From an uncultured Oscillospiraceae bacterium (GTDB taxonomy: Bacteria > Bacillota > Clostridia > Oscillospirales > Oscillospiraceae): 48,797 bases of DNA. The DNA is taken from the NCBI GenBank assembly GCA_947629755.1, contig CANREY010000005.1, positions 1 to 48,797 on the forward strand. The letters are read 5' to 3'. How positions within the stretch are numbered: position 1 is the stretch's first letter; each line of letters begins with the position of its first letter. Below, one piece after another: positions 33,533 through 46,838 of the stretch. The notes under the pieces were generated by a model. It made no database searches. It was not told where the DNA came from and saw only the letters and a list, made by a program, of their open reading frames with translations. A program made the position numbers and the translations under genes.

Positions 33533-33664
33533 GTAGGGGCCGATGCCTACATCGGCCCGACGCGCCAATTTGACCTCTGGCCTAAATCGACGCGTAATAT
33601 TATGTGCGCTTTAACGGGGCGTTGCAATATCGGGACACGGGCCGATGTGGGCATCGGCCCCTAC
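33533..33664. repeat. Inverted pair of 27-bp palindromic repeats
   Basis: 33533-33559 and 33638-33664 are inverted copies (26 of 27 matching), and each is itself a hairpin with GGGCCGATG/CATCGGCCC-type arms. The right copy overlaps the cdd stop codon at 33661-33663. The 78-bp interior shows no gene. The whole could fold as one large stem or serve as the cdd-side terminator. Confidence 0.7.
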
Positions 33665-38397: not shown

Positions 38398-38559
38398 ATA
38401 CTAATATCTAATTAAAAGAAGACACCGAGCGGCGAGGATTTTTCGTGTCAGGCAAGGAAGACGCCGCAGGGAATACCCATTGGTATTTCCAAGGCGGCTG
38501 ACGCCGCATGACGCGAAAAAGACCGTCGCGAATGGCTTGTTTTAATTAGATATTAGTAT
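38398..38559. mobile_element. MITE-like element with perfect 20-bp terminal inverted repeats
   Basis: Arms 38398-38417 and 38540-38559 are exact reverse complements (20 of 20; left arm ATACTAATATCTAATTAAAA). The arms are AT-rich while the interior is GC-rich and itself partly self-complementary (TTTTTCGTGTCA against TGACGCGAAAAA; GGAATACC against GGTATTTCC). There is no open frame. It ends two bases from the ybeY stop codon and stands 34 bases from era. It has no transposase, as expected of a non-autonomous element; an RNA structure of the ybeY-era transcript is the alternative. Confidence 0.7.
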
Positions 38560-45822: not shown

Positions 45823-46838
45823 TTATCTCAAGCTTACAGCCTCATTGTCCCGGCACAGCTCATATATATTTCCGTCTTTTATAAGGTACGCCTCGCCATA
45901 TACCGTCTTATTCTCCCCGTCTATAATGATATAGCTTCCGTCGTTCAGCGCGATAAACTCATGTCCCACGCTGTCCGGAAGCGTGATGTCCTCCATCATT
46001 CTCAGCCCGTCCAGATACGTGTCCCGAAGGGCCTGATAGTGGGGAAAGATATTTATGTCGGTTATGCCAAGCCCCTCTATCCACCGCTTATACTCAGGGT
46101 CGACCGCCTCCCCCTCCAGCTCCGGCCCGGCGTAGACGTTCTTGGCGCAATTCATCGCCCCCGCGCTCCACGCGAGCACGATCCCCTTAAATCCCGAAAG
46201 CCTCTCCTTGAGCCGCAGCCGCTTCAGGAAAAGGTTTTGCGTGGGGACGTGTCCTCCCGTCAATATAATGACGTCCGTCTCATGTATCTTCTCAATAATA
46301 TCCGAGTCCCTGCCGTCGCACATCTCAACTGACGAGACCTTAAGGCGACGGGAGTCGAACCCACGCCGGTTTCTGGCGGCGGATTTGCGCCCGTGCGGCG
46401 TCAAAGCCCTTGACAATACACAAAGTATTCTCTGCGGGCTTTTTCTTGCCCGGACACAAATCCGCTCGCCAGAAACTGCTTCGCACTCCACGCGGTGCAA
46501 TTTACGAGCGATTTTCGGTGAGGCGGAGGAAGCCTTGCTGACGCAAGGCGACGACAACGAGGCGAAAAGCGCCAAAAAGGGCCCGCGTGGAGCGGCGTGG
46601 GTTCGTCTCCCGTCGCCTTAAGGCCGCTCATCGGGAACGCCCGGCTCATGCAGAACCTTATATCGTCATTTTTCTCATAGCTGTGAGGTTCGGCGCAGAT
46701 AATGAGGACCTTCGCGTTATTTACCCAAATTTTCCTCAAATTCTCCGTAAGTCCGTTGTCCTCTAAAAGAGCCGCCGGCACACGCTTACCGTCCGTTTTG
46801 ATATATCCCCCAAGCGCGCTGGTCAGTACCACTTTCAT
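45823..46838 (-). pseudogene. Peptidase S51-like (peptidase E / class I GATase-like) gene split by an insertion
   Basis: The family hydrolyses Asp-X dipeptides (peptidase E) or has related roles. The N-terminal part (ATG at 46838 with GGAGG upstream, MKVVLTSALGGYIKTDGKRV) runs about 70 codons, then enters the element at 46621 and meets a stop at 46401. The C-terminal part (from about 46337) holds VIILTGGHVPTQNLFLKRL, the nucleophile motif LAWSAGAMNCA and NIFPHYQALRDTYL. Removing one copy of the end sequence plus the insert (278 bp) rejoins SGLK and VSSVEM in frame, giving an uninterrupted 245-residue protein, which is the normal family size. A functional product from the present sequence is unlikely. 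Confidence 0.85.
46340..46621. mobile_element. 282-bp MITE-like element inserted in the S51 gene
   Basis: Ends 46340-46368 and 46593-46621 are inverted repeats, 28 of 29 matching. CCTTAAGG is present at both ends (46338-46345 and 46616-46623), so TTAA or a longer part may be the target duplication. Inside are two long imperfect stems: 46369-46393 with 46451-46476, and CTCCACGCGG (46486-46495) with 46583-46592, plus smaller nested hairpins (AAAGCCC/GGGCTTT; AATAC/GTATT; CCTTG/CAAGG). There is no transposase frame. The element breaks the host gene by a net 278 bp. Confidence 0.82.

Follow-up and report, generated by a model that had tools for sequence, protein, structure and literature searches.

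A non-autonomous inverted-repeat element in a peptidase S51 gene of an uncultured Oscillospiraceae bacterium, and a hairpin found between other inverted ends

In the stretch of 48,797 nucleotides analysed here (the window, from contig CANREY010000005.1 of an uncultured Oscillospiraceae bacterium), a peptidase gene is split by a short piece of DNA with inverted ends. Is that piece a mobile element, and if so, what moves it and what is its interior for? A first-pass annotation, made from the letters alone, had proposed a non-autonomous element whose removal, at 278 bp, would restore the reading frame of a protein of 245 residues.

An insertion in the peptidase S51 gene

The insert with inverted ends and one mismatch that the annotation had described is present in the sequence: the arms at 46338-46368 and 46593-46623 are 31 nt long and 97% identical, with a single mismatch, and CCTTAAGG stands at each edge. 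Its limits were refined to 46343-46618, with ends of 26 bp, and the features of the locus are as follows.

45823..46342, minus strand: C-terminal part of the split peptidase S51 gene (PF03575)
46341..46342, no strand: left TA copy of the 2-bp target duplication, inside TTAA (basis, the table of 47 copies and the empty sites)
46343..46618, no strand: the family A element AGGCGAC...GTCGCCT, with a tip-to-tip length of 276 bp (basis, the inverted arms, other copies and a relative's empty site)
46343..46368, plus strand: left terminal inverted repeat (TIR), 26 bp (both ends were found in 47 copies)
46593..46618, minus strand: right TIR, 26 bp, one mismatch relative to the left
46619..46620, no strand: right TA copy of the 2-bp target duplication, inside TTAA (same basis as the left)
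46619..46838, minus strand: N-terminal part of the split peptidase S51 gene

With the element included, the gene spans 1016 bp of the minus strand, from 46838 down to 45823. Its C-terminal piece matches Peptidase_S51 (PF03575) in Pfam with an E of 2e-8, and the 72-aa N-terminal piece by itself has no Pfam match. Subtraction of 278 bp from the 1016 leaves 246 codons, or 245 residues and a stop, as predicted, and in a relative of the same genus (genome G030, locus L173) the peptidase gene is uninterrupted in the predicted frame. It can be seen from the alignment with this relative, a check that the annotation had suggested, that the relative's gene spans the junction at a site without the element and with the length of the collapsed window site. 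The relative's protein reads AFPMSGL-D-VSSVEV and its junction stretch is AFPMSGLDVSSVEV; the window pieces end with AFPMSGLK and resume with VSSVEM. Because the collapsed site has the relative's length, the net insertion is 278 bp, that is, the 276-bp element and 2 bp of duplicated target. The element entered a TTAA site of the peptidase S51 gene and duplicated TA, and the 278 bp gained shift the frame.

The element can hold at most 92 codons, and the longer open reading frames there enter from the flanks. It is too short for a transposase gene and is therefore without a transposase of its own, in line with the annotation, which had also described an interior of two stems; two hairpins are predicted. 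The element strand folds at -169.3 kcal/mol, the shuffle mean being -105.9 (z -12.9, with none of 200 shuffles as good), and the window copy has a G+C content of 61%.

Copies, ends and target site of family A

The search for further copies that the annotation had called for was productive. The genome from which the window comes (G000, a draft of 2.2 Mb in 130 contigs, completeness 97.5%) has 11 places with a family A element or parts of one, namely four copies of about 275 bp (the window copy included), three of about 375 bp with an extra piece of 100 bp, two cut at contig ends and two end-only remnants; the closest to the window copy is 96% identical to it. Across the genus, 24 of 34 genomes (its own included) match at E 0.001, 18 of the 34 with long matches at E <= 1e-50 and six weakly. 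Five of the six weak matches were read as copies of a second family, family B, which has the interior hairpin in common, and in the remaining one (L066) no element was recognised. With these copies and the empty sites described below, the proposal of an inserted non-autonomous inverted-repeat element holds, and we conclude that 46343-46618 is almost certainly a MITE.

Two-ended copies (n=47) were taken from loci L001-L112, with L010-L044 excluded as repeats of the same places. Measured from tip dinucleotide to tip dinucleotide, 37 of them are 271-274 bp long, nine 370-373 bp and one 426 bp. Hairpins consisting of TIRs only, 39-57 bp long and flanked by TA or AT, were also seen (L192:643-681, L191:2982-3020, L194:401-440, L195:401-454, L196:175-231, L197:401-454 and L198:401-446). 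The inner bases that they retain differ among copies, as internal deletions would leave them, and the existence of such copies might indicate that movement does not require the hairpins.

Some observations on individual copies may be recorded here. At L002, on contig C19 of the window's own genome, a family A copy interrupts a second gene, aldo/keto-reductase-like by eye; its net length of 276 keeps the frame, and there is one stop within the element. The extra structured piece of about 100 bp in the 370-373-bp copies (loci L005, L006, L007, L100 and L102-L107, with a longer one in L107) is also present, alike as judged by eye, in a 258-bp family B copy (L109:742-999). Related pieces of about 100 bp are abundant in the genus, family A is itself inserted in one (L092), and the piece looks like a third repeat family. 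The window has another inverted-repeat pair at 33533-33664, with arms of 27 nt, 78 nt apart and 96% identical. The family A end sequence, AGGYGACGGGAG, resembles the tmRNA 3' end: tmRNA genes at L184:2670-3026 and L190:995-1351 match the 20-base end pattern with two mismatches, and ARAGORN calls tRNAs that overlap two family A remnants (L180, L191). This likeness may reflect chance or descent, and some other end families are without it by eye.

In the copies with GG/CC tips (n=34) the base adjoining the left tip is always A and that adjoining the right tip always T (34/34 each). The middle TA is equal on both sides in 31/34 at each position, and the outer bases, mostly T and A, disagree in 10/34 and 9/34. 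Since the A and T beside the tips never vary, both look element-borne, which makes the ends AGG...CCT and the duplication TA within a preferred TTAA. In the copies with GC tips (n=13) TATA predominates at the four positions on either side, which fits a 2-bp AT and a 4-bp TATA duplication alike.

A search with joined flanks found a relative spanning the junction for 10 of 13 sites. Empty sites for L003, L092 and L107 are exact and each fits 2 or 4 bp (the partners of L092 being copies of another repeat), and those for L001, L088, L095 and L106 agree in length, with substitutions. That for L048 is ambiguous, and L002 is not consistent, since its relatives differ by 276 and not 278. The only site that cleanly separates the 2-bp from the 4-bp reading is L087, which, set against L149 and L150 (ATAA; relatives 78-80% identical), fits a 2-bp TA without any mutation. 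A 4-bp TTAA duplication of the piggyBac/IS1380 kind was rejected for the GG sub-family on the strength of the disagreeing outer bases and the ATAA of the L087 empty site; the TTAA duplication that the annotation had considered possible is consequently not supported in copies with GG/CC tips. TA termini are described as usual among bacterial MITEs in the portion of PMC2229807 used here.

The two-hairpin interior and its recurrence between other ends

The aligned copies of the short class follow the plan end, hairpin I, hairpin II, end throughout. The hairpins of the window copy, and a family B element that also lies in the window, are listed here.

46369..46476, minus strand favoured: hairpin I, whose covarying core is matched by model R1 at 46372-46467; the minus strand runs out to the left tip
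46483..46592, plus strand favoured: hairpin II, taken to be a mirror copy of hairpin I that has diverged; the plus strand runs out to the right tip
38399..38558, no strand: family B element with other ends (TACTAATATC...) and a 3-bp duplication, TAA; R1 match at 38434-38530, minus strand

Family B copies are mostly 158-160 bp long, with ends TACTAAT...ATTAGTA and one R1 hairpin. They show a 3-bp TNA duplication, which is identical on the two sides in 14 of 16 copies (two of the 16 being 79 and 258 bp long) and in 9/9 copies of a further set.

The first alignment of hairpin I comprised 31 elements (16 of family A, three from other MAGs and 12 of family B). In it 23 of 32 pairs changed on both sides and the covariation score was 0.417, compared with 0.054-0.116 when partners were slid, the copies counted being related and not independent; one of five measures, further pair types, was not raised (38, with a shuffled mean of 38.5). 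A second set was made up of 41 further hairpins in 38 loci matched by model R1 with E up to 1e-6, in an alignment (A2) fitted to the model. Here all 32 pairs changed on both sides and the score was 0.525, compared with 0.043-0.120 for slid partners, again among related copies.

Imperfect pairs were one-sided in both sets. There were 74 A.C and 3 G.T in the first, which on the other, favoured strand read as 74 G.U and 3 A.C, and 92 A.C and 10 G.T in the second, in which A.C outnumbered G.T in 33/41 sequences, with the reverse in one and ties in seven. The excess of A.C points to wobble pairs when the opposite strand is read. Stability was compared in 22 elements, five of 27 (L292, L206, L288, L286 and L309) having been left out beforehand for length or divergence. 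Hairpin I was more stable on the strand opposite the modelled one (minus) in 20/22 elements with RNA energies and 21/22 with DNA energies, and hairpin II was more stable on that same strand in 2/22 and 0/22, respectively. Taken as single hairpins, 31/31 of the first set showed the bias under both RNA and DNA energies, as did 36/41 (RNA) and 40/41 (DNA) of the second. As the bias is present with either set of energies, it does not favour DNA over RNA.

R1 on the opposite strand matches hairpin II in L058 (E 5.6e-4) and, weakly, in L050 (0.12) and L201 (0.42), and R1 matches both hairpins of L350. We read hairpin II as a putative diverged mirror copy of hairpin I, and on this reading the favoured strand at each end runs out to the 3' tip. 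The loops of the favoured strand are loosely conserved (GCAAGG, GCAG, CAAG or CGAG, TGACG or TAACG), and in hairpin I the positions of the inner loops and of some mismatched columns stay constant, with a bias to one strand. The conservation of hairpin I pairing and inner loops reaches far beyond sequence conservation. Each hairpin folds better on one strand, and on opposite ones, as if it were kept as a single-stranded fold. Near hairpin I, Rfam gave only sub-threshold matches to unrelated models. A role as an intrinsic terminator was considered and rejected, as by eye no U-tract follows hairpin I on the favoured strand.

When 84,980 species genomes were searched for exact matches to one family A end, 39 stretches were obtained, each from a MAG whose title names Oscillospiraceae or Clostridia. 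Five loci in four other MAGs (L201, L215, L222, L219 and L206) have the same ends and a length of 273-275 bp around an interior that is largely changed and for which a two-hairpin fold is predicted. R1 recognises L201 and L219 and misses L206, whose hairpin likeness is thus that of the predicted fold. In more distant families of the order the ends are different too (for example AGGGTAGAGC and GGCATACGGGA), the plan and length being kept in many of the 28 loci read and the total length staying near 275 bp. The plasmid search gave one match, covering 46% of the query, on pMM35_01 of the named human-gut isolate Vescimonas fastidiosa: a 273-bp two-hairpin element (L340:3957-4229) with other ends, CCATCGGTTGAC, and TA on both sides, which is unannotated and lies between two genes. 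Of 11 places fetched from genome G296, 10 are two-ended, each with a length of 278 bp when measured from AAGG to CCTT. Seven of the G296 copies, compared in one orientation, are 96-99% identical, which suggests that they are young, although several have flanks in common that belong to another repeat and could have been duplicated together with it. DDE_3 has no match in G296, and Y1 has a single match there, interrupted by stops. Three exact patterns had no match in viral contigs, and the phage search gave no match.

The R1 hairpin occurs in 97/295 genomes of the order and 52/148 genera (with up to about 14 places per genome scored), and in 18/398 genomes drawn over the phylum, 14 of the 18 being outside the order (weakest E 3e-4). 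Most of the 38 R1 matches that were read lie between inverted ends of many kinds, single or mirrored; around those of L306, L307, L310 and L343 no clear ends were seen. From the covariation, the constant length, the recurrence between different ends and the strand bias, we take hairpin I to be a portable, selected structure, and it is very probable that the hairpin is shared and selected across elements with different ends.

Mobilisation and the role of the hairpin

The annotation had also suggested looking for a transposase gene between the same ends. For family A this drew a blank in a partial search of unpaired ends and transposase loci in draft genomes. The 20 places with A-like ends that we fetched are one truncated and one full copy (L181 and L182, respectively), TIR-only copies, the tmRNA genes of L184 and L190, or single ends without a partner (L185/L189, L187, L193 and others), and seven frames near L185, L189, L187 and L193 have no transposase domain. 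The same partnerless A-like end is seen at L185:22 and L189:8975, in two genomes. Among the 39 one-end stretches, the unpaired ends that were read (L202, L207, L226 and L231) are TIR-only, truncated or decayed copies, and several others are at contig edges.

Searches by transposase domain gave a similar picture for family A. DDE_3 (PF13358) has no match in the draft G000 and is found in 4/34 genomes of the genus and 4/30 hairpin-bearing genomes of the order; at 14 DDE_3 loci of the genus no A end came closer than 5 mismatches in 20. DDE_Tnp_1 is found in 17/34 genomes of the genus, and among 30 of its 52 matches there was no partner with A ends, the closest A-like end having 4 mismatches in 20 (L258). 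Y1_Tnp (PF01797) has no match in G000, at least one in 12/23 element-bearing genomes tested, and no family A partner. A serine recombinase, with a 2-bp core and the ends as half-sites, was considered because TA seems to be switched to AT, and was not adopted, as little apart from the central bases stands out in the flanking logos of the GG set. A DDE enzyme or a serine recombinase is possible as the mobiliser of family A.

For family B the search succeeded in part: B-like ends (<= 3 mismatches to the pattern) stand on both sides of DDE_3 genes at L270 and L271, with duplications TTA and TGA, and the R1 hairpin is absent within both. In their ends, family B elements resemble an IS630-type insertion sequence. 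At L248 perfect B ends enclose a DDE_Tnp_1 gene, which was rejected as a partner because it is part of an insertion sequence (L248:1289-2981) lying within a B-copy hairpin and flanked on each side by the palindrome GGGAATACATACAGTATTCCC.

The best overall explanation, and in our judgement a probable one, is a MITE in the peptidase gene that was moved in trans and carries a portable hairpin module. An enzyme acting in trans on family A would read the 26-bp ends and cut at T-TA-A (at TATA for the AGC-ended sub-family), and the hairpin, as a folded single strand, would raise the mobility or persistence of its TIR element. Hairpins extruded in single-stranded or supercoiled DNA could label both ends and bring them together, or direct the enzyme to DNA undergoing replication. 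We tentatively prefer action as DNA, which is possible rather than probable, because with mirrored hairpins the two ends have the same polarity, which would not be so in any single RNA. A further possibility, held with somewhat less than even confidence, is that the R1 hairpin is itself the selfish unit, a module active as a single strand, alone or mirror-paired, that many unrelated pairs of transposon ends have acquired across the phylum and that promotes their spread; the ends would then be interchangeable vehicles and the hairpin the lasting passenger.

The main rival to the DNA mechanism is a role as RNA, and the energies do not tell the two apart. A read-through transcript would fold the favoured strand, the mirror plan ensuring one proper hairpin in either orientation, and cleavage or binding of the hairpin might limit the damage to genes nearby or serve a factor acting in trans; we regard both the role and these details as doubtful. 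The 74 G.U and 3 A.C of the favoured strand and its loosely conserved loops are consistent with RNA, some copies lie by eye between promoter-like boxes and start codons, and transcripts of neisserial MITEs have been proposed as RNase III targets in the sections of PMC2229807 drawn on here. However, the strand bias agrees as well or better with DNA energies, the Rfam matches were sub-threshold and to unrelated models, and, as the two hairpins are favoured on opposite strands, no single transcript has both in the favoured form.

Long inverted repeats are able to convert each other, and family A could be an ordinary MITE in which the ends alone matter, the interior being inherited baggage whose pairing is kept by template-switch repair of imperfect palindromes and not by selection. 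Such an element would be in keeping with the TIR-only copies, which at 39-57 bp still have TA or AT beside them. But repair of the arms would erase mismatches, and inner loops and some mismatched columns are instead kept, biased to one strand; in addition, the length near 275 bp persists in other families of the order and the hairpin recurs inside unrelated ends. We consider this explanation unlikely.

It is likewise unlikely that family A is an IS630 (Tc1/mariner-like) MITE, as family B appears to be. The TA duplication and TA-centred target would suit one, and B ends do resemble those of two DDE_3 elements; as far as the excerpts of PMC2229807 and PMC3049150 describe RUP of pneumococcus and IS630-Spn1, family B looks like the same kind of pair, a MITE and an IS630-type element with similar ends, differing in its R1 hairpin and 3-bp TNA duplication, whereas family A has no IS630 partner in sight. 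Against this origin for family A, PF13358 is unmatched in G000, in 29/33 other genomes of the genus and in 26/30 hairpin-bearing genomes of the order (drafts), A ends at the 14 DDE_3 loci fetched from the genus have at least 5 mismatches in 20, and the TATA/AT sub-family is unfit for an enzyme strict for TA duplication.

It is very improbable that family A is a REPIN-like element, mobilised by a Y1 (HUH) transposase that binds hairpins folded from a single strand. Mirror hairpin pairs with one favoured strand (for family A, in predicted stability), conserved mismatches and spread within genomes are common to family A and to REPINs and their RAYTs as portrayed in the parts of PMC3116915 and PMC8266576 cited here, and the REPIN enzyme binds REP and not its reverse (PMC8266576, in part). 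By contrast, REPs are 20-40 bp long (PMC3733652, in part) and tied to Y1 transposases, and Y1_Tnp is unmatched in G000 and present in just 12/23 element-bearing genomes tested. Family A has long TIRs and a 2-bp target duplication, neither of which is known as a feature of REPINs. The notion of a local secondary structure of the peptidase gene, or of an assembly artefact of a draft in 130 contigs, with no mobile element, is already refuted by the copies at unrelated places and in other genomes and by the empty sites.

Compared with published elements, family A shares TIRs, target duplication, TA termini, the want of a transposase, a strong fold and positions within and between genes with the bacterial MITEs with TA ends (Correia/NEMIS, RUP and others) covered in the consulted part of PMC2229807; it differs in its 276 bp (theirs being about 100-200), in the 61% G+C of the window copy (most of theirs being described as A+T-rich) and in an interior hairpin module common to elements with other ends. 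The CIR repeats of Caulobacter and Brucella are similar in their two long arms and linker and in a structure conserved between lineages, but are tabled as without TIRs and, in the same part of that source, are not described as a module common to element families. The ends and target of family A are ordinary, then, while a shared interior is not described for small mobile elements in the portions of PMC2229807, PMC3049150, PMC8266576 and PMC3116915 cited. A limited search of the open-licence PMC literature found no description of the family A element or the R1 hairpin.

Bacterial MITEs are usually viewed as transposons stripped to their ends. Here it is the interior that persists rather than the ends, one fold being kept between different ends, over great sequence distance and with a strand preference. 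Model R1 makes the question of the hairpin testable, and if the hairpin does drive spread, small mobile DNA would have a trait that has gone unrecognised, and there should be enzymes or host factors able to read the hairpin. In gut Oscillospiraceae, these elements disrupt genes.
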